Below are positions 270-21,777 of a DNA stretch of 64,000 nt, in pieces. This DNA comes from Elusimicrobiales bacterium (GTDB taxonomy: Bacteria > Elusimicrobiota > Elusimicrobia > Elusimicrobiales > UBA9959): positions 62,001 through 126,000 of the forward strand of contig JAQTZB010000007.1 in assembly GCA_028688015.1 (NCBI GenBank), written 5' to 3'. A program made the position numbers and the translations under genes. Within the stretch, counting starts at the first letter, position 1; the number at the start of each line of letters is the position of its first letter. Below the pieces are notes generated by a model that searched no databases, was not told where the DNA came from, and saw nothing but the letters and a program-made list of their open reading frames with translations.

Positions 270-1013
270 TTATTTAGGCAACAGGGGAGAGTCGGGAGGG
301 AGGCCGTAGGCTTCGGCAAGGTTAGAGGGCTGCAGCATGACCGCGGCGGGGCCGAAGGCGTATTGGCCTGCGCCTTTGAGCACCAGGGCCTTGTTGCAGC
401 CCAGGGCCGCCAGGGCCGGCTCATGCAGCACGGCAGCCACCGCCAGGCCCTTGCCGGCCAGGCGGCGCAGCAGGGCCATCACTTCCGACTTGTATTTCAA
501 GTCCAGGTGAGAGGTCGGCTCGTCGAGCAGCAGCACTTTGGCCTCCTGCGCCAGGGCCTGCGCTATGAAGGCCAGCTGGCGCTCTCCGGTGGAAAGCGTG
601 TTCACAGAGCGCCCGGCCAGCCTGGCTATGCCGGTCTCCTCCAGCGCCAGGTCCGCCGCGGCGCCGTCGTCGGCCGAATAGCCGCGCCAGAAACCGGCGC
701 GGGCCGTCCGCCCGAGCAGTACCATCTCGCGCACCGAAAAGTCGTAGGGCGTGGCCGTCTCGCTGGCCACGTAGGCCGCCAGGCGCGCCAGCCGTCCCGG
801 TTTCAGCGCGTAGACCTCTTCCCCTCCCAGCCTCACCGATCCTCCCGCTGGCTTTATATAGCCGGTCAGCAGCCGCAGGAGCGTCGACTTGCCGGAGCCG
901 TTGGGCCCCAGCACGCACATGAAATCCCCGGAGCGCAGCTCGAAGGACAGGTCCTCCAGCAGCGGTCCGCCGCTGAAGGAGAAAGTCAGGCCTGAAGCCC
1001 GCAGCACAGGCAT
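270..1013 (-). CDS. btuD: Cobalamin ABC transporter ATP-binding protein BtuD
   Basis: ATPase subunit of a FecCD/BtuCD-type importer, powering uptake of vitamin B12 from the periplasm. The 247-residue protein shows Walker A (GPNGSGKST), the signature LSTGERQ, Walker B (VLLLDEPTSHLDL) and the switch His in VLHEP. I chose the ATG at 1011-1013, which overlaps the btuC stop (TGATG), over an in-frame start 36 nt upstream that lies inside btuC. It is the last gene of btuF-btuC-btuD. The family also includes siderophore importers; the cobalamin riboswitch upstream of btuF decides the substrate call. Confidence 0.9.
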   Translation of the reverse strand: MPVLRASGLTFSFSGGPLLEDLSFELRSGDFMCVLGPNGSGKSTLLRLLTGYIKPAGGSVRLGGEEVYALKPGRLARLAAYVASETATPYDFSVREMVLLGRTARAGFWRGYSADDGAAADLALEETGIARLAGRSVNTLSTGERQLAFIAQALAQEAKVLLLDEPTSHLDLKYKSEVMALLRRLAGKGLAVAAVLHEPALAALGCNKALVLKGAGQYAFGPAAVMLQPSNLAEAYGLPPDSPLLPK

Positions 1014-1948
1014 CAGGCCCTCCCCCGCGAACCGCGCCAGAGCAGCCACATAAAGAAAGGCGCACCCGCCAGCGCCATCACCACCCCGGCCGGAACCTCC
1101 GACGGAGGGAAAAGGGTGCGGCCGGCCGCGTCGGCGGCCGCCAGCAGCGCCGCCCCGCCCACGGCTGCCGCCGGCAGCAGCGCCCTCGCGGACGGGCCCG
1201 TCAGCAGGCGCACAATATGCGGCGTCATCAGCCCCACGAAACCGATAGTCCCGCCCAGCGCCACCGCCGCCGAGGTGGCGGCGCAGGCCAGCGAAAAGAA
1301 CAGCACTCTTTCGCGGGCGGGGTCCACCCCCAGGTGGTAGGCGCTTTCCTCGCCCAGCGCCATGGCGTCAAGCGACCGCCAGCGCAGCATGGCCAGCAGC
1401 GCGCAGACGGCTATGATGCCGGCCGAAGCCGCCAGCACGCCGGGCTGCGACGGGTACAGTCCGCCCAGCACGAAGTAGAACAGGGAGAAGGAGCGCTCGC
1501 GCGCCGCCGTCAGAGCCAGCATTACCAGCGCCGACAGGAAGGCGCTCACGGCCACGCCGGCAAGCACCAGCGCCGCGTCGGACAGGCGGCCGGCCAGCCG
1601 CGCCAGCCAGTAAGAGAGGAAGGTGGCCCCGAAGGCGCCGGCGAACACCGCCGCGAAGAACAGCGGCGAGGTGCGCTCTATCCCGGCCATGAAGCAGAGC
1701 ACGGCCGCCGCCGTCGCGCCGGAGGAAGTGCCCAGGATGTACGGGTCGCTGAGCGGGTTCTTCAGCGCGCCCTGGAACAGCGCTCCGGCCAGCCCCAGGC
1801 CGGCCCCCACCGCCAGCGCCGCCAGCGTGCGCGGCAGCCGGAGGTTCCAGACTATGTCCGGCGCCAGCCCGGCGGGCCCGGCGGCCAGCGAGAACAGGCA
1901 GGCCGCGGCCAGCGCGGCCAGCAGCAGCGGGAGCCTATTTTTTCTCAT
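1013..1948 (-). CDS. btuC: Cobalamin ABC transporter permease BtuC
   Basis: Inner-membrane permease of the FecCD/BtuC family, 311 residues with many hydrophobic helices. Family hallmarks visible are the early GAxLGLAGALFQG segment, GTSSGA, and near the C-terminus GFVGLMTPHIVR, the region contacting the ATPase. A shorter homologue than E. coli BtuC, but full-length for the family. The start overlaps the 3' end of btuF by 14 nt, so translation is probably coupled. Function is inferred from family plus riboswitch context. Confidence 0.9.
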   Translation of the reverse strand: MRKNRLPLLLAALAAACLFSLAAGPAGLAPDIVWNLRLPRTLAALAVGAGLGLAGALFQGALKNPLSDPYILGTSSGATAAAVLCFMAGIERTSPLFFAAVFAGAFGATFLSYWLARLAGRLSDAALVLAGVAVSAFLSALVMLALTAARERSFSLFYFVLGGLYPSQPGVLAASAGIIAVCALLAMLRWRSLDAMALGEESAYHLGVDPARERVLFFSLACAATSAAVALGGTIGFVGLMTPHIVRLLTGPSARALLPAAAVGGAALLAAADAAGRTLFPPSEVPAGVVMALAGAPFFMWLLWRGSRGRA

Positions 1949-2726
1949 TCAGGAGCTTTTCCAGTTTCGCTATCTCTGCGAAAAGGCGCGGCCCGGGGCG
2001 CGCGAAGGCGTCCCTGTCGAGCGTAGTGATGACGCGGCCGGCCTTGACCGCCGCAAGGTCCTTCGCCATCGGGCGGGCGGCGAATTCTTCCGCCGTGCCC
2101 GCCAGCAGGATCACGGCCTCGGGGTCCAGCAGCAGGGTTTCCTCCCAGGAAGCCTGGAAATAACCGCGCTTCTCCCCGCCGAACACGTTCCTGCCGCCGG
2201 CCAGCCGCACGGCGTCCGACAGGAACGACAGCCCGCCGGTGGTCCAGCCGCCGGCGTCGGCCTCTATGTAAACCTTCAGCGGCTTTTCCGGGGCTTTGCG
2301 CGCGGCCTTAGCGGCCAGCTGCTTGGCCAGGCGCTCCCCTTCCTTCTTAAGCCCCAGTTCCGCGGCTATCAGCCGCACGGTGTTCAGGATATCCGCCGCG
2401 CTCTTCTCTTCCGGCAGGGAGACCACTTTGAGGCCCAGCGAAGCCAGCTGCTTCGCCGTGGACTGGCCGGCCCAGGCGCCGGTAAAGATCACGTCTGGCT
2501 TCAGCGAGTAGACTTTTTCCACGTTGGGGCGCAGGTAATCCCCGGTCTTCTCTATCTTCAGCGCCGCGGGCGGCCAGTTGCAGAAGTTGGACACCCCCAC
2601 CAGGTCGCCCCCGGCGCCAAGTTCGAAGATGATCTCGGTATAGGACGGCATCAGCGAAACGACGCGGCGCGCCTGCGCCTGCCCGGCCAGCAGAAGTAAC
2701 GCCGCAGCGATAAACATGTTTCTCAT
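1935..2726 (-). CDS. btuF: Periplasmic cobalamin-binding protein BtuF
   Basis: Substrate-binding component of the importer, 263 residues, with a signal peptide (MRNMFIAAALLLLAGQAQA, cleavage near residue 19) and the class III binding-protein start RVVSLMPSYTEIIFELGAG. The ATG at 2724-2726 directly abuts the U-tract of the riboswitch terminator, and its only SD-like bases (AAAGGG) lie in the terminator's 3' arm. A second ATG at 2715-2717, three codons later, is a possible start. Without the riboswitch this family could equally bind a siderophore or haem. Confidence 0.9.
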   Translation of the reverse strand: MRNMFIAAALLLLAGQAQARRVVSLMPSYTEIIFELGAGGDLVGVSNFCNWPPAALKIEKTGDYLRPNVEKVYSLKPDVIFTGAWAGQSTAKQLASLGLKVVSLPEEKSAADILNTVRLIAAELGLKKEGERLAKQLAAKAARKAPEKPLKVYIEADAGGWTTGGLSFLSDAVRLAGGRNVFGGEKRGYFQASWEETLLLDPEAVILLAGTAEEFAARPMAKDLAAVKAGRVITTLDRDAFARPGPRLFAEIAKLEKLLNEKK

Positions 2727-2757
2727 AAAAAAAGCCCTTTCTCCGGTGAGAAAAGGC
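2727..2757 (-). terminator. Intrinsic terminator of the cobalamin riboswitch
   Basis: Minus-strand RNA would form a 10-bp stem (2748-2757 with 2734-2743, one G-U pair) with a 4-nt loop, followed by seven U residues at 2727-2733. It ends exactly at the btuF start codon, so it can act as a transcription attenuator, and it also buries the only SD-like bases for btuF. Confidence 0.9.
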
Positions 2758-2880
2758 CCTGTTTTCCCCTCGGAAGCCCCCGCTTCCGGCGGAGGTTCGC
2801 AGTAGACCGGGCTAGCCTTGCGGCATTACCGTTGCGGGGCAGCCCCGGGATCGCACCGGGTTCCTTCTGCGCTACGCTAT
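2758..2880 (-). promoter_or_regulatory. Cobalamin (B12) riboswitch
   Basis: On the minus strand the leader contains the hallmark cobalamin aptamer blocks: AACCCGGTGCGATCCCGGGG, then GCTGCCCCGCAACGGTAA, and further on a B12-box-like stretch AGCCCGGTCTACTGC. These match the conserved core as I know it (GGTG-GAA-CC, GCTG-CCCGCAACTGTA, B12 box). It lies between the fadL-like gene and btuF, directly upstream of an intrinsic terminator, so B12 binding most likely stops btuFCD transcription. Confidence 0.93.
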
Positions 2881-2887
2881 TATGATA

Positions 2888-4129
2888 CTAAAATTTGTAC
2901 TTAACTTCCCCCATCACGTAGCCCCCCCCGAGGCCGTACTTGACCCCGCCGGCCTTGCGGGTGGTGAAATCCCCCGCCAGCGCGCCCAGCGTGCCCTGCA
3001 GGCCGCCCCAGCGGCGGCTGACCGCCGCGGAGAAGCGGTGCATGTGCACGTCTATGGCCGCGGAATGGTCCAGGGAGCCCGCGTCTATGGCCGGCGTGTC
3101 GTAGGCGTAGCCGGCCAGGAAGTCGGTGCGCTCGTCGTAAGCCCACAGCGCGCCGGCCCGGAACTTGTAAGAGTTCTTCCAGTCGAAGGTCTTGGCCTGG
3201 TCGGCCAGCAGGGTACCGGGGTTATCGTAGGTGGTCTTGTTGGAGAAGCCCTTCCACCAGGTCTGGGTCAGGTCGCAGGTCAAGGTGAGGTCCTTGCGGA
3301 ACTTCCAGGCCGCGCCCACGCCGGAGGTGGGCGGCTGCATCAGGGAGAATTTAAACCCTGTAGCCTCCGTCATGGCCAGGGCCGGCCAGGACGCTTCCGC
3401 GTCGCCCTCTATCTTAACGTCGGCGCCGGTCCGGAACACCGCGCCGAGAGAAAAGGAATCGTTCAACTGGTACTTGCCGCCGAATATACCTTCGACGCCA
3501 TAGCCGGTTCCGTCCATCTCCTTGTCTATGGTCCCCGCGCCGACGGCACCTATTTTAGCGTCGCTGGCTATATCGCCGCGGATGGCGTTTACGCCCAGGG
3601 CCAGCGAAATGTTTTCTGTTAATTTGCGGGCGTAGGAGATGTTCGCCACCGTTATACCGGCGAAGCCCTTGTAGTCTATGCTGTCGTACGTCGTGTTGCC
3701 CGGCAGGCCGGCGTCCTTGAAATCAGAGCCCTGCAGCAGCGGCATATAGAGGCCGGCGCCCAGCGCGGAACCCTTGCCGAGGGGAACCACGGCGCCCAGG
3801 GATCCGAAAAAGAAAGAGGACCGGGAATGCTTCTTGGCAAAGCGGTCAGTGGTGGCCGGGAGGCTGAACGAGTTACCGTCGTAGGAGTGGCTGTTTCCTT
3901 TCTTCAGTTCCAAACCCGCCTCGCGCGCTTTCACGTCCGCCAGGTTGGCAGGGTTCCAGTAGATGGCGCTCCAGTCCGCGGCGTCGGCGATAACGGCGCC
4001 GCCGCGCGCTATGGAGCGGGCCCCTATGCCGTCGAACTCGTAGCCGGAGGCCGCGAGGAACTCCGGGGCGGAGACCGAAAGCAAAAAGAAAAGAGCGGCG
4101 GCGCGGTTGCGGTGCGTGCTGTGTGTCAC
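2888..4129 (-). CDS. OmpP1/FadL/TodX-family outer-membrane protein
   Basis: A 413-residue secreted beta-barrel. It has a signal peptide ending near EFLAAS and the FadL-family N-terminal plug motif, seen as GARSIARGGAVIADAADWSA followed by IYWNPANLA. The C-terminus ends in an amphipathic strand with terminal Phe (VMGEVKYKF), the usual outer-membrane sorting signal. FadL relatives import hydrophobic compounds such as fatty acids or aromatics; the substrate here is unknown. The start is GTG, preceded by a strong GAGGGGG ribosome site. It lies 42 nt after the histidine-kinase gene on the same strand, so may be the last gene of the hypA operon. Confidence 0.85.
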   Translation of the reverse strand: MTHSTHRNRAAALFFLLSVSAPEFLAASGYEFDGIGARSIARGGAVIADAADWSAIYWNPANLADVKAREAGLELKKGNSHSYDGNSFSLPATTDRFAKKHSRSSFFFGSLGAVVPLGKGSALGAGLYMPLLQGSDFKDAGLPGNTTYDSIDYKGFAGITVANISYARKLTENISLALGVNAIRGDIASDAKIGAVGAGTIDKEMDGTGYGVEGIFGGKYQLNDSFSLGAVFRTGADVKIEGDAEASWPALAMTEATGFKFSLMQPPTSGVGAAWKFRKDLTLTCDLTQTWWKGFSNKTTYDNPGTLLADQAKTFDWKNSYKFRAGALWAYDERTDFLAGYAYDTPAIDAGSLDHSAAIDVHMHRFSAAVSRRWGGLQGTLGALAGDFTTRKAGGVKYGLGGGYVMGEVKYKF

Positions 4130-4171: not shown

Positions 4172-5440
4172 TCAGGCGGCGCGCAGCGAAACGGCCACGG
4201 TCAGGCCGCCGCCCTCACGGTTGCGCAGCTTTATGTCCCCGCCGTTGCGCACCAGCAGGTCGCGGGCGATTATGAGCCCGACCCCGGTCCCGCCCTTCTT
4301 GGTCGTGATGGATTTGCGGAAGGCGGCCCGCAGTATTTCCTCAGGCACGCCGGGGCCGTTGTCGGAGACGGAAACCAAAACTTCTTTATCCTTCACTTCG
4401 ATACCGATCTCTACCGTCTTGGCGTCCGGGTTGTCGCTGACGGCTTCCACGGCGTTCTTGACGATATTGAAAAAAGCCTGCTGGAGGTCGGCCCGGGAGG
4501 CCACCGTGGCGGCCGGCTCGCCCGGCCGGTAGCCTGGCGAGAACTTTACCCAGCGCGCCTGCGGGGAGAACGTGACGATGGCGAGCAGGTCGCGCAGGAA
4601 CTCGGCCAGCACTATTCGCTCCGTGCTGGGCCCTCCGGGCTTGCCGAAACGGGTGATCCCGTGCAGGGACTCCACCATGGCCTCCACGGTCTCGCTGACC
4701 GACTTGAGGTCGGCCAGTTCCTCCGGGGATTTTTTCCTGAGCCCCTCCATCTCCAGGTAGCCGGAAACCGAGGCGATGGGGCCGCGCAGGTCGTGGGCAA
4801 TACGGTGGGCCAGCACGCCTATCTGCGCGGTAGAGTTAAGCTCCGAGAATTTCCGCAGCAGGGCGTCTTTGTCCGCGGCCTCCTGGGTTACCTTTTTCCG
4901 CAGGTTGGCCAGGATGAGCCGGGAGGTCAGCCGCGTAAGCACCAGGTAGGCGGTCGTGATGCCGGCTATCAGCGCCGTTACCGGCAGGCTGGCGTAGATC
5001 TCCAGCGCCCACGGGTTGGAACTGGCCAGCACCCCCGAATATTCCCCGGCGACGACCAGCAGGTAGCCGGCGAGGCTGGCCTGCAGCGTCCAGGTTTCGT
5101 CCAGGCCGTAGAGCGCTTCCGAAACCAGCACGCTGAAAAACATGAAGACGAAAGGCGAGACTATGCCGCCGGTCAGGTGCACCGCAGGCGTCAGGATAGC
5201 CGCGGCCAGCAGGCCCATCATGGAGTTGCTCCAGCGCGAGTCCTTCGGAGGATAAAAGCGCAGGACCAGGTAATAGCAGGAGTACGCGGCAGCGCTGAGC
5301 AGCCCCAGGTAGCCGAGCGCCCTGGGCAGCGGGCCGCCCAGCAGGAAGATGACCCCGGCCGCGGCGAGGGAAATGCCCGACGCCAGCACGACCTGGGTCC
5401 GGATCAGCCTGGCGTATTTAGCCGTCTCTTGGTCGTTCAT
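4172..5440 (-). CDS. Membrane sensor histidine kinase (copy 1 of a tandem pair)
   Basis: 422 residues. The first 170 or so contain about six hydrophobic segments and no obvious periplasmic sensor, so the membrane domain itself may sense. The HisKA box is IAHDLRGPIASVSGYLE, with the phospho-acceptor His at residue 216. The HATPase domain shows the N box (FFNIVKNAVEAV), G1 (VSDNGPGVPEE) and G2 (GGTGVGLIIARDLL). It is a close paralogue of the gene just upstream, separated by 10 nt. No response regulator is adjacent. The signal is unknown. Confidence 0.88.
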   Translation of the reverse strand: MNDQETAKYARLIRTQVVLASGISLAAAGVIFLLGGPLPRALGYLGLLSAAAYSCYYLVLRFYPPKDSRWSNSMMGLLAAAILTPAVHLTGGIVSPFVFMFFSVLVSEALYGLDETWTLQASLAGYLLVVAGEYSGVLASSNPWALEIYASLPVTALIAGITTAYLVLTRLTSRLILANLRKKVTQEAADKDALLRKFSELNSTAQIGVLAHRIAHDLRGPIASVSGYLEMEGLRKKSPEELADLKSVSETVEAMVESLHGITRFGKPGGPSTERIVLAEFLRDLLAIVTFSPQARWVKFSPGYRPGEPAATVASRADLQQAFFNIVKNAVEAVSDNPDAKTVEIGIEVKDKEVLVSVSDNGPGVPEEILRAAFRKSITTKKGGTGVGLIIARDLLVRNGGDIKLRNREGGGLTVAVSLRAA

Positions 5441-5450
5441 AGTTCCCGGG

Positions 5451-6725
5451 TCAGGCCAGCGGCAGCACGGCTTCCACGGTCAGGCCGCCGCCGGGGCCGT
5501 TGCGCAGCCGGATCTCCCCCCGGTTGCGAACCAGCAGGTCCCTCGTGATCAGCAGGCCGATCCCGGTGCCGTCGTGCTTTGTAGTGACCGGCTTCCTGAA
5601 AACGGTGTTCAGCGTCTCTTCGGAGATGCCGGGCCCGTTGTCGGCAACGGTCACCCGGGCGTCCTTGCCGGCCCGCGCTATGGTTATGCGCACGTGCTTG
5701 TCGTCCGGATTGTCGCCTACGGCCTCTACCGCGTTCTTGATCACGTTAAAAAAAGCCTGCTGCAGGTCGGCCCGGGCGGCGGTGACGGCCAGCCCGTCGC
5801 CCCCCGGCTCCACGATCTCCAGCCGGACGCCCTTGGCGCGCGGTGCAAAAGCGGCTATGGCCACGATGTCGCGCATGAAATCAGGCAGGTGTATTTTCTC
5901 TTCGCTGGGCCCGCCCGGCTTGCCGAAGCGGGTAATGCCGTGCAGGGTCGCCACCATGCTGTCCACGGTTTCGCTGACCGTGCGGAGCTCCTCCCGTTCC
6001 TCCGGCGTCCGCTGCTTCAGGGCCGCCAGCTCCAGGTAGCCGGAGACGGACGCTATGGGGCCGCGCAGGTCGTGCGCGATGCGGTGGGCCAGCACGCCCA
6101 GCTGGGCGGTGGAATTCAGCTCGGAGAATTTGCCGAGCAGCGCGTCTTTCTGGGTCGCCTCGGACTCTATCTTGGCGCGCAGGTGGCTGATAATCTGCCC
6201 GGTAAGGTTCTTGGTCATCGCCAGGTAGGACACCAGCAGGGCCGAAATTATAACAAGAAAAGCCGGGCTGGCGTTGGCGGGCGCCGCCCAGGGGGTCGGG
6301 TTCGGCAGGACCCCGTAGTAAATGCCCCACACGGCGGTCAGGTAACCCGCAGCGCTGACCGGCACCGTCAGTTTATTCTCCAGGCCGTAGATGGCCTCGG
6401 AGACCAGGACAGCCATGTAGAGGAAGGCCAGGGGCGACACGGCCCCGCCGGTGTAATAAACGGAGACGCTGATTATCAAGGCGCCGATCTGGCTGAGCGC
6501 CACCCCGGCCACGCGGTAACAGTGCCGGCAGATCAGTTTGAAAGCGAAAAAATAAGTGAAGTAGCAGCAGACCGAAAAGAGGCTGAACCAGGCCACCGTC
6601 CTCGGGAAAGGGAGCCGGCCCAGGAAGAGCAGCACGGTGGCGACCAGGCCCAGGAAGCCGGCCAGCAGCGCGTTCAGGCGCAGGGCTTTGCGGGTTTTCT
6701 CGTCCTGGTCCGCGGCGGAGTTCAT
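5451..6725 (-). CDS. Membrane sensor histidine kinase (copy 2 of a tandem pair)
   Basis: 424 residues, the same layout as its downstream neighbour: about six N-terminal membrane segments, HisKA with His218 in IAHDLRGPIASVSGYLE, N box FFNVIKNAVEAV, G1 VADNGPGISEE, and G2 DGTGIGLLITRDLL. The first ATG overlaps the stop of the HypB-like ATPase gene (ATGA). The near identity around the H box with divergent membrane domains suggests a tandem duplication followed by sensor divergence, or two kinases that heterodimerise. Cysteines in the membrane part (CC at 53-54, CRHC at 66-69) are absent from the paralogue. Confidence 0.88.
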   Translation of the reverse strand: MNSAADQDEKTRKALRLNALLAGFLGLVATVLLFLGRLPFPRTVAWFSLFSVCCYFTYFFAFKLICRHCYRVAGVALSQIGALIISVSVYYTGGAVSPLAFLYMAVLVSEAIYGLENKLTVPVSAAGYLTAVWGIYYGVLPNPTPWAAPANASPAFLVIISALLVSYLAMTKNLTGQIISHLRAKIESEATQKDALLGKFSELNSTAQLGVLAHRIAHDLRGPIASVSGYLELAALKQRTPEEREELRTVSETVDSMVATLHGITRFGKPGGPSEEKIHLPDFMRDIVAIAAFAPRAKGVRLEIVEPGGDGLAVTAARADLQQAFFNVIKNAVEAVGDNPDDKHVRITIARAGKDARVTVADNGPGISEETLNTVFRKPVTTKHDGTGIGLLITRDLLVRNRGEIRLRNGPGGGLTVEAVLPLA

Positions 6726-7432
6726 TTGAAGAGCCCCAGTTTTCGGGCGGCGCGCCCCAGGTCGCGGGCGAAGGCGGTCTTCAACAGGGCGGCTGGGCGG
6801 CCCAGCGCCCGCTCCAGGCCCGGGTCGCGGCGGATGACGGCGTCGGCGCCTTTAGCCCGGCCGCCGGAGGACAGGTTCTCCACCACTCCGAGCACCGGCA
6901 CTTTCAGTTTTTTATAGAGTTCCAGGGAGCGGGCCAGCACGTCGTGAGCCAGCAGCGAAGGCGCGGTTATCGCCAGCACCTCGGCGCCGGCGGCGAAGCG
7001 CATCACGTCCAGCGCGGCGTCGTTGATGCCGGGCGGCATGTCCAGCACCAGGAAATCCAGCTCCCCCCACTGAGTTATGGCGAGCAGCTCTATGATGGCG
7101 TCGGAGACGTTGGCGCCGCGCAGCGGCACGGCCTTGTTCTCAGAGAAGAAGACCACCGACATGAACTTCACGCCCCGGAACACCGGCGGCTCCAGGCCCT
7201 TCTCCTCTTTGGGGAAGAGGCCCTTGGCGCCCAGCACCAGGTGGTCGGAGGCGCCGGCGAAATCCAGGTCGAACAGGCCGGTCTTGAAACCTTTTTGAGC
7301 CAGCAGCAGGGCCAGCGTCGAGGCGGTGACGCTCTTGCCTATGCCGCCCTTCCAGCCGGTCACGGCGACAATGCGCTTAACGCCTCTGAGCCGCTCGGCT
7401 ATCACCGTCGGGCGCGGGTCGATGTCGGTCAT
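6722..7432 (-). CDS. MinD/Mrp-type ATPase, probable archaeal-type HypB (nickel insertion)
   Basis: 236-residue P-loop ATPase with the deviant Walker A KGGIGKS (first Lys at residue 28), the aspartate-rich FDLDFAGASDH, and LDFLVLDMPPG. Such Mrp/MinD-type proteins adjacent to hypA act as the HypB partner in Thermococcus (mmHypB), helping HypA deliver Ni to [NiFe] hydrogenase; I infer the same role. I chose the ATG overlapping the hypA stop (ATGA at 7429-7432) rather than a frame running 74 codons back through hypA. No G-domain HypB is present in the window. An alternative role is a generic Fe-S carrier (Mrp), but the hypA coupling argues against that. Confidence 0.75.
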   Translation of the reverse strand: MTDIDPRPTVIAERLRGVKRIVAVTGWKGGIGKSVTASTLALLLAQKGFKTGLFDLDFAGASDHLVLGAKGLFPKEEKGLEPPVFRGVKFMSVVFFSENKAVPLRGANVSDAIIELLAITQWGELDFLVLDMPPGINDAALDVMRFAAGAEVLAITAPSLLAHDVLARSLELYKKLKVPVLGVVENLSSGGRAKGADAVIRRDPGLERALGRPAALLKTAFARDLGRAARKLGLFK

Positions 7433-7833
7433 TTTTCGCCCTTGATATAGCTGATGGAAACGCCCCGCCCCCTGGCTATCTCGAAGTCGGGGCTCGCGCA
7501 CTTGGGGCATTTCAGGAAGGTGTGGGCCATCTCCGGCACGAAGTGTATGAACTCGGCCTCGTCCTTGGTCTTTCTGAGGCCCTTCAATGGGAATTCGTGC
7601 GCGCAGGCCTTGCAGCGGAAGACCGCGGGCTGTTTTATGATCTTGAATTTGCACAGCTTCGCGGCCGGGAACTGCGCGCGCAGCTCTTCCAGCGCGAACT
7701 TGAAGATCTCGCCGTCTATGGCCTGCAGCTCGCCGAAAACCACGCCGGCCTCTTTTAATTTTTTAAGTTTTTCCGCCGCGGAGTGTTCCACGGCCGCCTT
7801 GATCACGGACTCTGCGAGGGCCCATTCATGCAT
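7429..7833 (-). CDS. hypA: Hydrogenase nickel-incorporation protein HypA
   Basis: 134-residue zinc-binding nickel metallochaperone for [NiFe] hydrogenase maturation. It begins MHEWALAESV, retaining the N-terminal Met-His-Glu nickel site. The zinc site is two CxxC pairs, Cys74/77 and Cys109/112. The 31-residue gap between the pairs is much longer than in E. coli HypA and resembles Thermococcales HypA, which pairs with a MinD-type HypB. The gene starts nine nt after a TATAAT element with no SD, suggesting a nearly leaderless mRNA. It heads an operon with the ATPase and the two kinases. Its client hydrogenase lies about 10 kb away. Confidence 0.93.
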   Translation of the reverse strand: MHEWALAESVIKAAVEHSAAEKLKKLKEAGVVFGELQAIDGEIFKFALEELRAQFPAAKLCKFKIIKQPAVFRCKACAHEFPLKGLRKTKDEAEFIHFVPEMAHTFLKCPKCASPDFEIARGRGVSISYIKGEK

Positions 7834-7842
7834 AGTGCTTCA

Positions 7843-7848
7843 ATTATA
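7843..7848 (-). promoter_or_regulatory. -10 element of hypA operon
   Basis: TATAAT on the minus strand, nine nt before the hypA ATG; no SD sequence lies between. No convincing -35 box was seen. Confidence 0.55.
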
Positions 7849-7890: not shown

Positions 7891-8553
7891 TTATTTCCAG
7901 GTCACCGTCAGGGAATTTTTACCCCGGTCGTATTTGAAGGCCAGGCCGGCGGCCTCGGCGGGCAGGGCCTTTACGGTGTAGCCCTTTAACTTTTTAGGCA
8001 GGTCCGCGGCGCAGAGGCCGTCCAGGGAGGCGGCGTCCGCCATCCACGGGTGCGTGCGCAGCAGGCGCACTTTCAGCGGCCCCAGGGCCAGCGTCTCGTC
8101 CTTTATGGCGAAGTCGGCCCCGGGCCCGCGGGGCAGTTCCATGCTGGCCCCCTTGTAGCCCAGGTAGCGACCGCCGGAGCAGAACACCGTGGCCCAGGAG
8201 AGGGCGGGCGTCTTGTCGCCTTCCAGCTTGATGAACAGCGAGGCCCGGTAGCCGGCCGAGCGCTCCGGCGCCGCGGCCTTCGGGAAGACGATGTCCGCGC
8301 GCCCCGCCCCGTCGCGCACCACCACGGTCACGGAGCTTTCCATGCGCGCTGCGCCCACGCCGTACCGGGCGTAGTAGCCGGTGTCGGTGGGCGCCGGCAC
8401 GGCGGGTACGCGGTCCTCGTTGAACTTGTAGACGTGGGCGACGCGCTTGGAGTTGAGGTTGAAGTCAGGCAGGTACTGCTCGGCGGAGGCGCGCCCCGCC
8501 CCCGCCGCGCAGAGCGCGGCGAGCAAGACCAGGGTCTTCAGGGCGGGGTGCAT
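7891..8553 (-). CDS. Secreted protein of unknown function
   Basis: 220 residues with a clear Sec signal peptide ending about AGRASA. The mature part has alternating beta-strand character and a single Cys; I recognise no family. The start ATG has a good GGAGG site seven nt upstream. It is the last gene of a run with the ECF sigma factor, the putative anti-sigma factor and two RcpC/CpaB-like proteins on the same strand (21-nt gap), so it probably belongs to the same regulon or surface structure. It ends 57 nt before the hypA start, with no strong terminator. Confidence 0.7.
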   Translation of the reverse strand: MHPALKTLVLLAALCAAGAGRASAEQYLPDFNLNSKRVAHVYKFNEDRVPAVPAPTDTGYYARYGVGAARMESSVTVVVRDGAGRADIVFPKAAAPERSAGYRASLFIKLEGDKTPALSWATVFCSGGRYLGYKGASMELPRGPGADFAIKDETLALGPLKVRLLRTHPWMADAASLDGLCAADLPKKLKGYTVKALPAEAAGLAFKYDRGKNSLTVTWK

Positions 8554-8574
8554 AAGTCCTCCGTGCGGTCATCG

Positions 8575-9576
8575 TCACTTTATCAGCTTGCGGAAGCTGG
8601 CTATCTCCATGGGGCGCATCTCCAGGTCGCCGGGAGCGCGGCGCACCAGGTTGATATTGCTGCCCTGGGCCAGGCTGAGCGCGGCGTACTGCGCTTCGTT
8701 GGGGTTGCACAGCAGCTGTACCACGCCGGTTTCTCCGGCGTTAGCGGGCTTCTTGACCCCGGTCACCAGTACGTTCTGCAGGATCGTGGCGGTGACTTTT
8801 TCCTTCATGTCGCCGCTCATGATCGCCTCGAACGTGACCAGCATGTCCACGCGGTCGCCCTTTTGCAGGAAGAGCGCCTGCGAGCCGGACAGGCCCAGGC
8901 TGACGCCCCGGTAGCCTGGCAGCACGCGCGCCTCGGGGCTGTAACGGGCCTCGGGTTTCCGGCCGGCGCCCTTGCGGGGTGCTTCGAAGAGCTGCGCGAA
9001 CAGGTCGCGGGCGCGGCGCAGCAGCTCGGCGGTCTTCAGCTCGCCGCCCTTGCGGTTCGCCTGCGCGACGGCCTGGGTGAGCTCGTCGAAGTCCCGGCTG
9101 ATGCCGTCGAACGTCGCCAGCATGGTGCCGCCGCGCCCGTAGAAGGAACCCTCCAGGTTGGCGCGGGTAATGCGGTCCACGCTCATATTGAAGCGGATGC
9201 GCATGTCCTGCAGGTCCGCCTCCAGGTCCAGCGGGTTTCCGGCCTTGCCCGCCTTATCGGCGAACTCGTAGAGGATGGAGACGGGCGTCTGCCACAGGGC
9301 GGCCTCGCTCAGCTCACCTTCCTCCGGGTCCTTCCACGCCTTGCGCCCCAGCATGCCGGGCACGTCCTTCTCCAGCCAGGCCGGCATCTGCAGCGCGGTC
9401 TTGCCGGGATGGCAGGAAGTCGGGCGGTCCTTCACCTTGGCGTCGGCCATCGGGGACAGGTAGTAGTAGAACACCTGCATGTCCTCGGCGGCGCAGGCCG
9501 TCTCGGCCGAGGCCGCGCTGGCCTGGCCGGGGGCCGCCAGCGCGGCCGCTATGATCAGGATTATAAGGTAGTTCAT
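8575..9576 (-). CDS. Secreted RcpC/CpaB-like protein (long paralogue)
   Basis: 333 residues: signal peptide to about residue 20 (ending PGQASA), then a helical region of about 190 residues not shared with its neighbour, then a C-terminal domain from PGYRGVSLGLSGSQALFLQK onward. That domain (GDRVDMLVTFEA, KVTATILQNVLVTGV, GVVQLLCNPNEAQYAAL, RAPGD) matches the pattern of the RcpC domain of CpaB/RcpC Flp-pilus proteins. No SAF domain or pilus genes are nearby. It ends in the tail PMEIASFRKLIK, shared with the next gene. The start has an AGGAGG site. The role is presumably periplasmic or envelope assembly. Confidence 0.72.
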   Translation of the reverse strand: MNYLIILIIAAALAAPGQASAASAETACAAEDMQVFYYYLSPMADAKVKDRPTSCHPGKTALQMPAWLEKDVPGMLGRKAWKDPEEGELSEAALWQTPVSILYEFADKAGKAGNPLDLEADLQDMRIRFNMSVDRITRANLEGSFYGRGGTMLATFDGISRDFDELTQAVAQANRKGGELKTAELLRRARDLFAQLFEAPRKGAGRKPEARYSPEARVLPGYRGVSLGLSGSQALFLQKGDRVDMLVTFEAIMSGDMKEKVTATILQNVLVTGVKKPANAGETGVVQLLCNPNEAQYAALSLAQGSNINLVRRAPGDLEMRPMEIASFRKLIK

Positions 9577-9585
9577 AAGGCCTCC

Positions 9586-10110: not shown

Positions 10111-10129
10111 AACTCCTCCTTTTCCTTTT

Positions 10130-16188: not shown

Positions 16189-17229
16189 CTAGCGGGCGCC
16201 GGGCGCGGCGGCCCGCTCGCGCTCTTCCTGCGCCTGCGTCCAGGCGGTGAAGCCGGCCGAGGCGGCCGGGAAGGCGGACTGTTCGTCGCCGGCGCGGTAG
16301 CTCCAAGCCCAGGCCCCGGCCAGGCCGGCGCGCAGCGCCGCGTCGAGGTAGAACTCCGCCGGGCGGCGCCCGGCCGTGCCGAATTCGCCCAGCACGCAGG
16401 GACGGTCCAGGCGGGCGCTCCCGGGCCCGGGGTCCCCGTTCATGTGCTCGTAGTAATGGTACTGGTAGAAATCCAGGCCCAGGCCGCGCCAGCGCCGCAG
16501 GTCGGCCGCGCTCGCGCTGCCCACCGTCACCGGCTGCCGCGCGTGCTCGTGGACCAGCTCCGCGGCCCGGCGCACGAAGTCGCGCACTTTGTCGCCCGGC
16601 AGGCCGTCCTTGTCCATCCGCCACTCCGGCTCGTTCATGATCTCCCAGGCCAGGATCTCCTGGCGCGCGCCGTAGCGCTTGAGCAGCGGCCGCAGGGCGT
16701 TGTCGAAAAGGGATCGGGAGGCGGCAGGGTTTGCCAGCAGGGCCGCCCTCCCGCCCAGTTGAGCGCCGTTGACCAGCCGGGCCTCGTCGAGCAGGTGGAA
16801 ATCGAACAGCACCAGGACCAGCCGGACGCCGCTGCGCCCGGCTATCTCCAGCGCGGCGTCCAGGTCCCGGTAAAAGCGTTTATCGAAGCCGGTGACCCGG
16901 CCGCGGGCGTCGAACTCGGGCGCGGCCCGGCCGTCGCACAGCACGAACCAGCGCGCCACCCGGGCGCCGGCCGTGCGCATCGCGGCGAAATCCTTCTCCG
17001 CCTCGGCCCGCCCCTCCGGAGACGAGACGCCGCGGTGCCCCCACGGCGACGCGCCGAAGTCCCAGCCGTAATTGATCCAAGGGTAGTTCAGGCCGGCGGC
17101 GAAGCCGTCCATGATGCGGCCCGCCGGGCGGGGGCGCTCGCCGCAACGGACGGGGCTCCAGCAGCGGAAGGCCAGGGCGGCCGCCAGGAAGAGAGCCCCG
17201 GCTGCGGCCGCCTGAAGGGCGCGGCTCAT
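16189..17229 (-). CDS. GH5-like glycoside hydrolase, membrane-anchored or secreted
   Basis: 346 residues with a hydrophobic N-terminus (about 5-22). It has a TIM-barrel hydrolase pattern of clan GH-A: acid/base Glu200 in AWEIMNEPEW and nucleophile candidate Glu282 in CVLGEFGT, with FYQYHYYEHM on the intervening strand. Cellulases and mannanases of GH5 and related families share these motifs; the substrate cannot be told. Its ATG overlaps the stop of the hydrogenase maturation protease by four nt, an unexpected operon partner. Confidence 0.75.
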   Translation of the reverse strand: MSRALQAAAAGALFLAAALAFRCWSPVRCGERPRPAGRIMDGFAAGLNYPWINYGWDFGASPWGHRGVSSPEGRAEAEKDFAAMRTAGARVARWFVLCDGRAAPEFDARGRVTGFDKRFYRDLDAALEIAGRSGVRLVLVLFDFHLLDEARLVNGAQLGGRAALLANPAASRSLFDNALRPLLKRYGARQEILAWEIMNEPEWRMDKDGLPGDKVRDFVRRAAELVHEHARQPVTVGSASAADLRRWRGLGLDFYQYHYYEHMNGDPGPGSARLDRPCVLGEFGTAGRRPAEFYLDAALRAGLAGAWAWSYRAGDEQSAFPAASAGFTAWTQAQEERERAAAPGAR

Positions 17230-17714
17230 GACGCGTCCTCCAGGGAGTTGAAATAGGCGGCCAGCTCCGCCGCCGCCCGCTCCGCCTCGGGTGAAAGGCC
17301 TTCTTTATAATCCAGCGATTTGGCCTGCACGCCGACCACCGCCAGTTCCGCGCCGGTGTCTTCCCTGATTATGGAGAAGGTCACCGAGAGCGGGAAGCTG
17401 TGCGTGGAGATGGGCATGGCCTGATTGATGGCCTCCAGCGGGATCACGCGGACTTCCCCCGCCCTGCCCTGGAAATGCGCGGCGTCTACGAGGATGACCT
17501 TGTCGGGCTTCCAGTTTATGGCGGTCTGGGCTATGTTCTCCGGCGTGGTTCCGGCGTCGAGCAGGCGCAGCTCAGGGCGCGTGAATTTGACATGGGAGCA
17601 AACGTAAGGGCCGACGCCATCGTCGGCCCTCAGCGTACTGCCCAGCGTTATCACCAGCGTCCGCCCCTTCGGGGCGAGCGCGGCGGCGACTTCCTTATTC
17701 CACGAAGGTGACAT
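17226..17714 (-). CDS. [NiFe] hydrogenase maturation endopeptidase (HycI/HyaD family)
   Basis: 162 residues. Such proteases cut the C-terminal peptide from the hydrogenase large subunit after nickel insertion. The N-terminal motif GSTLRADDGVGPY corresponds to the family's GNxLxxDDGxG, with the conserved metal-binding Asp, and a second site is VILVDAAHF. Its ATG lies inside the last codons of hydA (20-nt overlap), consistent with acting on that subunit. It most resembles the HycI branch that serves group 3 and 4 enzymes. Confidence 0.88.
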   Translation of the reverse strand: MSPSWNKEVAAALAPKGRTLVITLGSTLRADDGVGPYVCSHVKFTRPELRLLDAGTTPENIAQTAINWKPDKVILVDAAHFQGRAGEVRVIPLEAINQAMPISTHSFPLSVTFSIIREDTGAELAVVGVQAKSLDYKEGLSPEAERAAAELAAYFNSLEDAS

Positions 17715-19023
17715 CGAGGAAGTGCGCGGAGCAGGAGATGCACGGGTCGTAAGCCCGCACGAGCATCTCGAGCTTGAGGCGGATCTTGTCCTTCCCCTCG
17801 CCCAGGATCTCGGGCAGGAACTTGGCGAAGTCGTGCTCGATATTATTCACGTTCTGGTTGGTCGGGATGATGCAGTTGGCGGTCTTGATCATGCCGTTCT
17901 TGTCCGTCACGTAGTTATGGTGCAGGATGCCGCGCGGCACCTCCACCGAGCCCACGCCGTCGCCGGCGCGCACCGGCACGGCGCCCTTCTCGTTGACGCC
18001 CACGGTGAGCTGCTGGCTGTAGTCCAGGCCGTTCTTCTTGAGGTCCTTGAGGATCTCGAGCGCGTGGTAATAGCAGTGCACTATCTCCACCACCTGCGCC
18101 ACGGTGTTCAGGAAGGGGTTCTTGCAGACCGGCTTGAAGCCCAGTTCCTTGGCAAGCGCCTTGGCCTTGGGGTGCAGCTTGTGCGCGTTCAGGTTGAAGC
18201 GGGCCAGCGCGCCCACGAACAGGCTCTCGCGGCTCCACTTCGACCACTTGGCGGACGAGCGCGGGTCTATGAACTCGTTGGTGGACTTCTTATAGTCCTT
18301 ATAGCTGACGCGCTTGCCGTCGGTGGAACCGATGTCGCCGTTGAGCAGCGGATACTCGTCGTCATCCGAGACCAGCGCCACGAACTCGGTGTCGCGCTCG
18401 AAATCCGGGAACTTCAGGGTCTTGGCGAGCTTGAGCACTTCGCCCAGGTCCTCAGCCATGCCCTCGAGCAGCTTTATCTGCGTGTCGATCTCTTTCTTCG
18501 AAGGCAGCTTGGTCCAGCCGCCGGCGATCATGGTGATCGGATGGATGTGGCGCCCGACCAGGATGTCGCAGCAGTCGTTGACGGCCTTCTTCAGGCGCAG
18601 CACCTGGCGCACGGTCTTGTTGTGCGAGGCGATGAGCGGGATGAAGGACGGCACGCCCAGCACGTCGGGGGCGGCCAGCAGGTAGACGTGCAGGATGTGG
18701 CTGTCGAGGAACTCGTAGTCGAGCAGCAGCTTGCGCAGCTTCACGGTCTGCTCGGTCGGCGTCACGCCCAGCGCGTCCTCGGCCGCCTTCACGGAGGCCA
18801 GCGAGTGGCCGCAGGAGCAGATGCCGCAGATGCGGCTGGTGATGTGCTGCGCCTCGAAGATGCTGCGGCCGCGCAGCATGCCCTCGAACAGGCGGGGCGT
18901 CTCCACCACGTGGAACTCGCACTTCTCGATCTTGCCGTTCTTGACGTTGGCGACTATGTTGCCGTGGCCTTCGACGCGGGTGACGTATTCAACTTTGATG
19001 TCGAGATCTTTTACGTTAGCCAT
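17695..19023 (-). CDS. hydA: Group 3b-type [NiFe] hydrogenase large (alpha) subunit
   Basis: 442 residues from the ATG that overlaps the small-subunit stop (TAATG). It binds the Ni-Fe active site through RICGICSCGHS (Cys66, Cys69) and DPCISC (Cys428, Cys431). The chain ends SAHFLDVTFVE, so cleavage after His434 would remove eight residues, and the protease gene follows. Gene order beta-gamma-delta-alpha matches the cytoplasmic NADP-linked sulfhydrogenases of Pyrococcus (HydBGDA). It can in principle evolve H2 from NADPH, or oxidise H2. Confidence 0.95.
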   Translation of the reverse strand: MANVKDLDIKVEYVTRVEGHGNIVANVKNGKIEKCEFHVVETPRLFEGMLRGRSIFEAQHITSRICGICSCGHSLASVKAAEDALGVTPTEQTVKLRKLLLDYEFLDSHILHVYLLAAPDVLGVPSFIPLIASHNKTVRQVLRLKKAVNDCCDILVGRHIHPITMIAGGWTKLPSKKEIDTQIKLLEGMAEDLGEVLKLAKTLKFPDFERDTEFVALVSDDDEYPLLNGDIGSTDGKRVSYKDYKKSTNEFIDPRSSAKWSKWSRESLFVGALARFNLNAHKLHPKAKALAKELGFKPVCKNPFLNTVAQVVEIVHCYYHALEILKDLKKNGLDYSQQLTVGVNEKGAVPVRAGDGVGSVEVPRGILHHNYVTDKNGMIKTANCIIPTNQNVNNIEHDFAKFLPEILGEGKDKIRLKLEMLVRAYDPCISCSAHFLDVTFVE

Positions 19024-19814
19024 TATTTCACACCTTCCTTGCACTTGTTGTACATATCGAACTTAGCTTTGATTAGTTCGGGCTTGAGATTGTACTTGCT
19101 TATGACGTCGTTGGCGTTCTTGGCGGGATTGCTCACCTCGCCGCGGCAGCCGTAGCAGATGTTGCCGTTATTGACGCACCAGGAATTGCAGCCGGCCTTG
19201 GTCCAGGGGCCCAGGCAGGCCAGTCCCCGCTCGTACATGCAGACGTTCTCGTTGAGCTTGCACTCGGCGCAGACCGGGTTGTCCGGCACGGTGTAGGGCA
19301 GGCCGCGCAGCGCGGACTTGAGCACTTCCACCAGTTCGGGCGCGTAGATCGGGCAGCCGTTGATGGAGTAATCCACCTTGACCACCTGGTGAATGGCCTT
19401 CGTCGGAGTGCTGTCGAACAGCTTGTAGTCCTTGCCGTACACGCTGGCCCGGATCTCGTCGAGCTCGAAGGAGTTCTTCATGCCATTGACGCCGCCGGTG
19501 CAGGCGCAGGCGCCGTAGGCGATGAGCACCTTGGCCCTCGCGCGGATCTTCTTGAGGCGCTCCTCGGCGTGGTGGTCCCCGATGGAACCTTCTATGAAGA
19601 CCACGTCGTAGTCGCCGTCCCATTTCTCGCTGATGGCCTCGCGGAACTCGACCACGTCAACCGCGCCGAGCACGTCAAGCAGGAGCTCGCCGAGGTTGGT
19701 GATCTGCAGCTGGCAGCCCTCGCAGGAGGCGAAGTCGAAGAACGCCACCTTGGGCTTGGCGGCGGCCTTGGGGGCCTTCGCCGGGGTCTTTACGGGTTTC
19801 TTGGTATTTTTCAT
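19023..19814 (-). CDS. hydD: [NiFe] hydrogenase small (delta) subunit
   Basis: 263 residues beginning with a Lys/Pro/Ala-rich tail of about 22 residues that is not typical of the family. The proximal [4Fe-4S] ligands are in CEGCQ (Cys31, Cys34), CAC (103-105) and NGCPIYAPE (Cys154). Eight more Cys between 182 and 223 (CAEC, C192, C200, C209, C213, CYGC) suit two further clusters. No twin-arginine signal, so the enzyme is cytoplasmic. It passes electrons between the Ni-Fe site and HydG/HydB. Confidence 0.94.
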   Translation of the reverse strand: MKNTKKPVKTPAKAPKAAAKPKVAFFDFASCEGCQLQITNLGELLLDVLGAVDVVEFREAISEKWDGDYDVVFIEGSIGDHHAEERLKKIRARAKVLIAYGACACTGGVNGMKNSFELDEIRASVYGKDYKLFDSTPTKAIHQVVKVDYSINGCPIYAPELVEVLKSALRGLPYTVPDNPVCAECKLNENVCMYERGLACLGPWTKAGCNSWCVNNGNICYGCRGEVSNPAKNANDVISKYNLKPELIKAKFDMYNKCKEGVK

Positions 19815-19827
19815 GGGTATCTCCGTA

Positions 19828-20670
19828 TTAAAGCTTCTTCGATTCCTTCACCTCTTCGTAGGTGAAGGTGGGGCCGTCTTTGCAGCAGTAGTAGTTCTTG
19901 GGGTGATCTATCTGGCAGTGGCCGCATTTCCCCATGCCGCATTTCATGTGCCGCTCGAGGGACAGGATGATCTGGCGCTCGGGCAGGTTCTTCTTGAGCA
20001 GCTCGGCGATGACGAACTTGTACATGATCGGGGGACCGACCACTACGCCGAAGGTCTTTTCCGGGTTGATGGTCACGCCGGGGATCAGGCTGGTGATCAG
20101 GCCGACGTTGCCCTTCCAGTCGGGGGCCGTGCGGTCCACCGTGCAGGAGAAGTTGACGTCCAGGCGCTTCTGCCAGGCCTTGATCTCGTCGCCGAACAGC
20201 ATGTCGGTGGGAGTCTTGCAGCCGAGCAGGATGTCCACCTTGCCGAACTCGCGGCGGTTGTCCATCACGTAATTGATCAGCGAGCGCAGCGGCGCGATAC
20301 CTAAGCCGCCCGCCACGAACAGCAGGTCGTTGCCGGTCATCAGCTTCACCGGGAACGGCTTGCCGAACGGCCCGCGGATGCCCAGCCAGTCGCCCTTGCC
20401 CAGCGAGTGCATGTGCTTGGTCAGACGGCCGGCCGCGCGCACGGTCAGTTCGAAGGAGCCGCGCTTGGTGGGGCTGGAGCAGACGGAGATGGGCGCTTCG
20501 CCCACGCCGTAGAGCTCTACCTGCACGAACTGCCCGGGCTCGTGGTCCAGGTCGCCGTCCTCGAGCTTTATGTCGAACCATTTTTCGGTGGCCGTCATCT
20601 GCCTGGCGGCGATTATCTGGCCCTTGCGGAGCCTCCAGTTGGAATTTTCGATGTGGATGTTCTCGGTCAT
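19828..20670 (-). CDS. hydG: Hydrogenase gamma subunit, FAD/NAD(P)H-binding
   Basis: 280 residues of the ferredoxin-NADP reductase/PyrK type: a flavin-binding barrel (GQFVQVELYGVGEAPISVCS), an NAD(P) domain (FVAGGLGIAPLRSLI), and a C-terminal [2Fe-2S] site (KCGMGKCGHC, Cys244, 249, 252, plus Cys262/263). It links the hydrogenase module to NADP(H). The gap to hydB is nine nt and to hydD 13 nt. Do not confuse with the [FeFe]-hydrogenase maturase also called HydG. Confidence 0.93.
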   Translation of the reverse strand: MTENIHIENSNWRLRKGQIIAARQMTATEKWFDIKLEDGDLDHEPGQFVQVELYGVGEAPISVCSSPTKRGSFELTVRAAGRLTKHMHSLGKGDWLGIRGPFGKPFPVKLMTGNDLLFVAGGLGIAPLRSLINYVMDNRREFGKVDILLGCKTPTDMLFGDEIKAWQKRLDVNFSCTVDRTAPDWKGNVGLITSLIPGVTINPEKTFGVVVGPPIMYKFVIAELLKKNLPERQIILSLERHMKCGMGKCGHCQIDHPKNYYCCKDGPTFTYEEVKESKKL

Positions 20671-20679
20671 GATATCCCC

Positions 20680-21777
20680 TTATTTATGCTCGGCGGCCAG
20701 GGCCTTCAGGGTGTCCTTCAGGTTGATCTTGGCCATGCAGGGGCGCGTGCAGCGGCCGCAGCCGGTGCAGAAGGAGCGGTAGAACTTGTCGAGCGGGTAC
20801 TTGAACTTGCGGTAGAAGCGGTGCCGCTGCCGGTTGGCGCGCTCCTCGCGGAAGTTCTCGCCGCCGGCCACGGTGGCGAACGTCTCGAACTGGCAGGAAT
20901 CCCAGGTGCGGTTGCGCGACCCGGTCTTCAGGTCCAGGTTGATCGTGTCGGCCATGTCGAAGCAGTAGCAGGTGGGACAGACGTTGGTGCAGTTGCCGCA
21001 GCTGACGCACTTGCCGCCCAGGTCGTGCCAGACCTTGCTCTCCGTGCCTTTCGCGAAGATCTCGGGGAGTTTCTTCGGGTCGACGCCGATCTCGTTCTGG
21101 AAGGCGTGCTTCTTGTTCTCGCGCACCTTGTCCAGCGCGGCCATGTCGGCCACGGAGGCCTTGCCGAGCCCCATGTTCTCCACGAGCTCCTCGCCCTTCT
21201 GCGTGTTCACGTGGATGATCCACTTGTCGCCGATGTCGGTGAAGAACAGGTCGTAACCGCCGTTGGGGTAGTGGTTCCCGACGAGCGCGCAGCTGGCGTT
21301 GCCGTCGCAGTATTTGTTGCACTCGAGGCCGATGATGATGATGTTCTCTTTGCGCAGCAGGTAGTTATAATCGCGGGGGCGCTCGGAGAAAACCATGTTC
21401 AGGCACTGTATGCCGGCCAGGTCGCAGGTATGCACGGCGAAGATGGCCAGCTTCTCGGCCTCCAAGTCCGCCTTGTCCTGGGGCTTCTCGCCGGAGAGGT
21501 CAAAATCCAGCATCTTCTCGCGCGGCGGCATGAAATATTTCTTCGGAGGGAGTATCGTCGGGATATACTCCATCGATATCTCCGAGGCTTCTTCGACTTC
21601 CTCGAAAGCGTAGTTATTATACCCCTTGGCTACAGGGGCATAGACCTTCATCTGCTTGGCCAGACTCTTTATAAAGCAGTTCAGGTTGTCTTTCTGCAAT
21701 ATGTGGTAATTCACTCTGGTGACCTCCGTTGACAGATTAACGAATACCGCTTCTATATTATATGTAAATTTCCTCAT
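20680..21777 (-). CDS. hydB: Hydrogenase beta subunit, iron-sulfur electron-transfer protein
   Basis: 365 residues of the sulfhydrogenase beta/AsrA-like family. Two ferredoxin-type motifs are present: CVSCGNCTNVCPTC (first Cys at about 257) and CTGCGRCTRPC (first Cys at about 337). Family members pass electrons between the FAD subunit and external acceptors, including sulfur in Pyrococcus. I use the second ATG (21775-21777); the codon before it is another possible start (TTG). No clear SD is present. It heads the operon hydBGDA-protease-GH5. Confidence 0.93.
   Translation of the reverse strand: MRKFTYNIEAVFVNLSTEVTRVNYHILQKDNLNCFIKSLAKQMKVYAPVAKGYNNYAFEEVEEASEISMEYIPTILPPKKYFMPPREKMLDFDLSGEKPQDKADLEAEKLAIFAVHTCDLAGIQCLNMVFSERPRDYNYLLRKENIIIIGLECNKYCDGNASCALVGNHYPNGGYDLFFTDIGDKWIIHVNTQKGEELVENMGLGKASVADMAALDKVRENKKHAFQNEIGVDPKKLPEIFAKGTESKVWHDLGGKCVSCGNCTNVCPTCYCFDMADTINLDLKTGSRNRTWDSCQFETFATVAGGENFREERANRQRHRFYRKFKYPLDKFYRSFCTGCGRCTRPCMAKINLKDTLKALAAEHK

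Follow-up and report, generated by a model that had tools for sequence, protein, structure and literature searches.

What are two membrane-bound histidine kinases doing in one operon with a pair of nickel-delivery genes? The arrangement occurs in a stretch of 64,000 nucleotides (nt) from an Elusimicrobiales bacterium (contig JAQTZB010000007.1, positions 62,001 to 126,000), referred to here as the window, in which hypA is followed by hypB, encoding an ATPase of the MinD type, and then by the genes for kinase 2 and kinase 1. An earlier reading of the letters, the original prediction, held that these genes form a coupled operon and that the kinases, which have no response regulator alongside, sense hydrogen, nickel or the redox state for hydrogenase maturation. 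Its four-gene coordinates, the ATGA overlaps between hypA and the ATPase gene and between the latter and the gene for kinase 2, and the gap of 10 nt between kinases 2 and 1 were all exact, and these joins bear out the coupled operon.

The reading preferred here, held with as much doubt as conviction, is that two modules share one transcript: the hypAB nickel pair and a kinase module that would sense a lipophile or a quinone. The kinases probably do not sense nickel or hydrogen. They stand between hypAB and the genes of a btuFCD transporter, an interval called the slot below. The genome is from the Elusimicrobia (3.34 Mb in 58 contigs, 97% complete, 6.9% contamination), with the metagenome-assembled genome (MAG) GWC2_64_44 as its nearest named relative. 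The comparison set comprised 32 genomes of the genus (congeners), 27 of which carry hypA; four of the five without it are less than 85% complete. Gene calls in the relatives came from a simple custom script, and their starts may be misplaced. A literature search judged by titles and abstracts found no pertinent paper on the hydrogenases of Elusimicrobia or on kinases encoded next to hyp genes.

The HypA–HypB pair and its probable hydrogenase client

The deduced HypA scores 146 bits against the archaeal-type model NF003008 (cut-off 125), falls under the cut-off for the remaining HypA models in the profile search and has the HypA of Thermococcus kodakarensis as its best solved relative (3a43, E = 5e-32). 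In the T. kodakarensis complex the nickel ligands are the MHE motif and His98 (review, PMC7055735). His2, Glu3 and His97 of the window protein, together with its four zinc cysteines (CxxC-x31-CxxC), are invariant in the alignment from the window to Thermococcus. The features of archaeal-type HypA, namely the MHE nickel motif, the extra histidine (TkHis98) and the four zinc cysteines with a long loop, are all present, and the model score, the structural match and the ligand alignment agree on the Thermococcus type with a long zinc loop that had been predicted.

The ATPase likewise has a T. kodakarensis protein, HypB, as its best solved relative (3vx3, E = 4e-61; the best Mrp reaches 5e-30). Its Pfam domain is named after the NUBPL iron-transfer nucleoside triphosphatase (NTPase), which speaks for an iron–sulfur (Fe–S) carrier of the Mrp/ApbC family rather than HypB; however, such an identity is extremely improbable. 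In a tree of 63 sequences the ATPase falls with TkHypB and HypA-linked proteins and is split from Mrp/Cfd1 with a Shimodaira–Hasegawa-like approximate likelihood-ratio test (SH-aLRT) support of 100, which rules out Mrp; the MinD-type HypB was therefore upheld, and the grouping with Mrp that the original prediction had named as its refutation did not appear. The Elusimicrobia HypB proteins form one clade within the HypA-linked group. Furthermore, the ATPase contains no cysteine, and the CxxC cluster motif that follows the NTPase core of Mrp/ApbC Fe–S carriers is absent from it; its gene has a fixed place beside hypA, and the Mrp-like protein of the genome is a different one, which carries a CPHC motif. 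No G3E-type HypB was found in the genome, where the sole match to PF02492 (cobW), a weak one, sits in a 437-residue protein that is not HypB.

Archaeal-type HypA occurs at 373 places in the genome collection. Among the best 80 of these 373, which were kept as loci, HypB is present at 75, nearly always directly downstream, and at least four of the five loci without it are cut by contig ends. The hosts are Elusimicrobia, Bathyarchaeota, Thermoplasmata, Methanophagales, Cloacimonadota, WOR-3 and a Desulfotomaculaceae MAG. Since 75 of the 80 loci hold both genes, the hypA–hypB pair is a widespread unit, and we regard it with high confidence as a nickel-insertion pair of the Thermococcus type, which is known mainly from archaea. 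At one locus (L052 of congener G002, about 6524–7160) the HypB frame is broken mid-gene; that genome also yielded no family kinase.

A hydrogenase operon with the order beta–gamma–delta–alpha, followed by a protease gene, lies about 10 kb upstream of hypA on the same strand. Its alpha subunit carries the nickel-ligand motifs CGIC and DPCISC and has as its closest solved relative T. kodakarensis HyhL (5yxy, E = 4e-61), a known client of Thermococcus HypA, with Pyrococcus soluble hydrogenase I (SHI) also close; operon order, nickel motifs and the affinity to SHI/HyhL place the enzyme in group 3b (sulfhydrogenases). Where no genes have been inserted, relatives show the arrangement hydBGDA-hycI-permease-ybaB-hypA-hypB. 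Contig C51 encodes a second large subunit, of the group-4 type with CGIC and DPCMSC, and HypC, HypD, HypE and HypF are all encoded on contig C39 in a hypC-hypD-LysR-hypE-x-hypF operon (L097:1808-8199).

The closest solved relatives of the window proteins are those of T. kodakarensis, HypA–HypB (3a43, 3vx3 and the complex 5aun) and the client HyhL, and the window HypA retains the nickel and zinc ligands of its counterpart. By analogy with the nickel cycle published for HypAB (PMC7055735, PMC12134894), ATP-bound HypB would bind two HypA molecules and so create a nanomolar nickel site from the MHE N-terminus and His97. ATP hydrolysis would then free Ni–HypA, which would load the group-3b hydrogenase and probably also serve the group-4 enzyme, while HypCDEF would provide the iron half of the cofactor from their own operon. 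Unlike T. kodakarensis, the host is a bacterium, hypCDEF form a separate operon with a LysR gene and kinases follow downstream. Thermococcus-type HypAB is thus documented in a bacterial lineage as its system for nickel insertion, with a conserved place beside the group-3b hydrogenase, which extends a mechanism known in structural detail from a single archaeon. The LysR-type regulator inside the hypCDEF operon is a more direct candidate for the control of hydrogenase maturation than the kinases.

The kinases and their sensor domain

Kinases 1 and 2 are about 50% identical, match HisKA and HATPase_c in Pfam (the HisKA match of kinase 1 lies just under the cut-off) and retain the conserved kinase motifs in an alignment, and their description as two paralogous membrane kinases was correct. 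The sensor domain by itself yielded no noteworthy match in Pfam, and in the genome only these two kinases match the domain convincingly. In an AlphaFold2 (AF2) model of residues 1–212 of kinase 2, a six-helix membrane domain continues into a long helix, with a predicted local distance difference test (pLDDT) score of 87. The nine best structural matches of this model are the six-transmembrane (six-TM) domains of class III adenylyl cyclases (AC9, AC5 and Rv1625c) and of ImcA, with Z scores of 9.0–12.7, although values below about 13 may, for a helical bundle, reflect a shared arrangement alone; the next match has a Z score of 7.7. The likeness is one of predicted fold only, at about 10% identity, and, unlike the cyclases and ImcA, the window kinases have a histidine kinase as their output. 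Adenylyl-cyclase membrane domains have been reported to be lipid receptors that respond to fatty acids (PMC11606603, PMC12505454), and the six-helix domain of the kinases probably binds a lipophile, such as a fatty acid, a quinone or an isoprenoid. The Elusimicrobia family, with its cyclase-like sensor, suggests a class of ligand for orphan six-TM kinases, which would be useful if correct.

The kinases also resemble RegB/PrrB/ActS (NF033792) in having a six-TM sensor, a kinase core and a GGxxSP motif near the ubiquinone motif of RegB, GGXXNPF (PMC8191878). GGxxSP is invariant in 39 of 39 family sequences and is followed by F in kinase 1 and by L in kinase 2; because it is RegB-like, redox sensing through a quinone is possible. 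Membership of the RegB family itself was rejected. The two kinases score 81.7 and 62.6 against NF033792, for which the cut-off is 350, the asparagine of the RegB motif is replaced by serine and no RegA-like gene lies alongside. Neither kinase has any cysteine, the redox-box one included, after its membrane part, and the family alignment shows neither a conserved cysteine column nor, in the sensor, an obvious set of nickel-type ligands.

Hydrogen-sensing kinases linked with hydrogenase genes exist in the form of HoxJ/HupT, which work with a regulatory hydrogenase (HoxBC/HupUV). The window kinases share the gene linkage; unlike HoxJ/HupT, they have a membrane sensor of their own, and HoxBC/HupUV were not seen in this locus. 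In agreement with the original prediction, between the start of the window and 26.9 kb no gene for a response regulator was seen; the nearest one in the window (26948-28279, + strand), at a distance of 19 kb, encodes a receiver fused to a domain of the metallo-beta-lactamase fold. Receiver-domain matches number 119 in the genome as a whole, and the kinases would hand their phosphate to response regulators encoded elsewhere. The response regulators found in the slot of relatives belong to cassettes with other kinases and were rejected as partners.

Kinase linkage and the variable slot

A box resembling TTGTATAAT lies 5–9 nt before the hypA ATG in 26 of the 27 hypA-bearing congeners, with 25 of the 27 matching at eight or nine of nine positions; no such box at a comparable level was found in these genomes before hypB, btuF or the hyd genes. 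In the window hypA lacks a recognizable Shine–Dalgarno sequence, so the transcript is probably leaderless or nearly so. The window contains no additional promoter-like site that could be found from hypA to the end of the kinases and the start of kinase 2 overlaps hypB; read-through from the hypA promoter into the kinases is therefore likely. With the slot read from this promoter, the kinases would be made during hydrogenase maturation, not necessarily acting on the hydrogenase. Elsewhere in the window, the genes at 24422-25504 (+), 22015-22500 (+) and 40433-41950 (+) lack a Shine–Dalgarno sequence and start 6 nt downstream of a TTGTATAAT-like box; judging by such starts, leaderless transcripts may be frequent in the genome as a whole.

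At a threshold of E < 1e-40, 22 of the 32 congeners together carry 37 members of the kinase family. Thirty of the 37 are on the hypA contig, all no more than 11.2 kb from hypA, a linkage that is beyond chance. The recurrence of the four-gene order in relatives, proposed as a check on the original prediction, was found in only one (G025) of the 26 other hypA-bearing congeners. The linkage is real, yet the four genes do not make up one system. In the 27 congeners, hypB is followed by a family kinase in 12, a lycopene-cyclase-like cassette in three, a radical S-adenosylmethionine (SAM) gene in two, an opposite-strand kinase/TonB cassette in four and directly by btuF in four, the other two being ambiguous. 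The hypB/kinase ATGA overlap occurs in three congeners, and the gap is at most 96 nt in all 12 adjacent cases. In 15 of the 27 no family kinase was seen directly after hypB, and in five none was detected anywhere. The slot is thus variable and at times empty; outside the genus it is often empty (loci L139, L140 and L144), with a kinase at L142, L145 and L147. Archaea and the other phyla examined have no kinase beside HypAB, save for one weak unrelated match.

In the kinase tree, kinase 2 groups with kinases of G025 and G001 and with one of G030 that is lycopene-cyclase-linked; the group of kinase 1 contains kinases of G025, G009 and G015. The hypB-adjacent kinases interleave with kinases following lycopene-cyclase-like genes; the proposal that they form one clade was rejected, as the label needs at least four changes on the tree, with a count of five. 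Of 14 lycopene-cyclase-like LycC2 genes, 13 are followed by a kinase, and two kinases lie in lycopene-cyclase cassettes on contigs away from hypAB. The FadL-type porin gene that follows kinase 1 in the window stands directly after a family kinase in 15 of its 17 matches in the genus. On these two counts, the tightest partners of the kinases are membrane-lipid-type genes, not hypAB, and the porin probably handles a compound related to the kinase ligand. Cassettes of lycopene-cyclase-domain membrane proteins, a six-TM kinase and a FadL porin were seen at L037:3906-8350 (approximate), L102 and L142, some members with a carotenoid-synthesis protein added. At L099:5596-7516, at a contig end, a TonB-plug-like start is joined to a kinase C-terminus, which is probably an assembly or gene-call artefact.

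Among the roles considered for the kinases, the lipophile- or quinone-sensing module is placed first, positional association second and a dedicated hydrogenase circuit third. A purely positional association, in which the slot tolerates insertions and the kinases arrived, were duplicated and were kept by descent with no shared regulation, appears rather unlikely, despite the free variation of the slot (which may hold a kinase, a lycopene-cyclase cassette, a radical SAM gene, an opposite-strand TonB/kinase cassette or no gene at all) and the presence of btuF directly after hypB in several lineages. Against it stand the overlapping or close same-strand joins after hypB, which occur in 12 genomes and in several kinase clades and argue for co-expression. 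Less probable again is a dedicated maturation circuit, in which the kinases would sense hydrogen, nickel or the redox state and tune hyp and hyd through a distant response regulator. The hypB joins, the proximity of most family members to hypA and the RegB-like motif are in its favor, as is the finding that, among the 341 genomes of the phylum, HypB is present in each one whose kinase reaches 30% identity. However, the kinase is undetected in five of the 27 hypA-bearing congeners and, one weak unrelated match aside, has no counterpart next to HypAB in the archaea and further phyla examined, the sensor has no conserved cysteine, and FadL and lycopene-cyclase-like genes are closer partners, with kinases in lycopene-cyclase cassettes elsewhere. 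The part of the proposed sensing role that concerns hydrogen or nickel fares poorly given these absences, the 15 congeners with no adjacent kinase, the interleaved tree and the lack of cysteine or nickel ligands, whereas redox sensing via a quinone is possible.

In the preferred reading, the kinases, which belong to an Elusimicrobia family found in the variable slot, would sense a lipophile or a quinone. Several observations weigh against it. Foldseek alone ranked Rv1625c first at E = 0.08, with nothing below 0.001, and the caution attached to the Z scores applies. Furthermore, a kinase match is present in 33 of the 341 genomes. The MinD-type HypB accompanies it in every one of the 26 Elusimicrobiota genomes in which the identity is 30% or more, and the five with a match but no such HypB show identities of 25–27%, although these counts ignore shared ancestry. 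The phylum count was relied on because co-occurrence within the genus is weak once genomes less than 85% complete are left out (Fisher p = 0.21). Together with the 30 of 37 family members near hypA, the 26 of 26 genomes leave room for a functional tie between kinases and hydrogenase. It is more doubtful than either alternative that the lipid or redox state of the membrane sets hydrogenase maturation through cyclase-like six-helix kinase receptors co-transcribed with hypAB; if true, this would be a bacterial circuit coupling a hydrophobic signal to the assembly of a nickel enzyme.

Features of the window

The features discussed above and their neighbors are listed in Table 1.

Table 1. Positions of the hyp, kinase and neighboring features in the window
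Feature	Position	Strand	Basis
hypA, archaeal (Thermococcus) type nickel metallochaperone	7429..7833	-	NF003008 score, 3a43 match, invariant ligands
hypB, MinD/Mrp-type ATPase, predicted to charge HypA with nickel	6722..7432	-	3vx3 match, tree
Kinase 2, six-TM sensor with HisKA/HATPase_c	5451..6725	-	Pfam, AF2 model, motifs
Kinase 1, paralogue of kinase 2, in a different clade of the family	4172..5440	-	Pfam, tree, motifs
FadL/OmpP1-type outer-membrane porin	2888..4129	-	PF03349, 60.4 bits; 42 nt after kinase 1
Cobalamin riboswitch, start of btuFCD unit	2716..2896	-	RF00174, 34.1 bits (gathering score 31.5)
btuF-btuC-btuD-like ATP-binding cassette (ABC) transporter, probably for B12	270..2726	-	Peripla_BP_2, behind riboswitch; conserved slot end in relatives
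Group-3b hydrogenase operon: beta, gamma, delta, alpha and HycI-type protease	17226..21714	-	Pfam; alpha subunit against 5yxy
-10 box (TATAAT), presumed hypA promoter	7843..7848	-	9 nt before ATG; near-leaderless start

Upstream of hypA, at 7891-11244 (-), the window encodes an extracytoplasmic function (ECF) sigma factor, then a small protein in the usual place of an anti-sigma factor and then further proteins, one of which is weakly RcpC/CpaB-like. This ECF set is found upstream of hypA in some relatives only.

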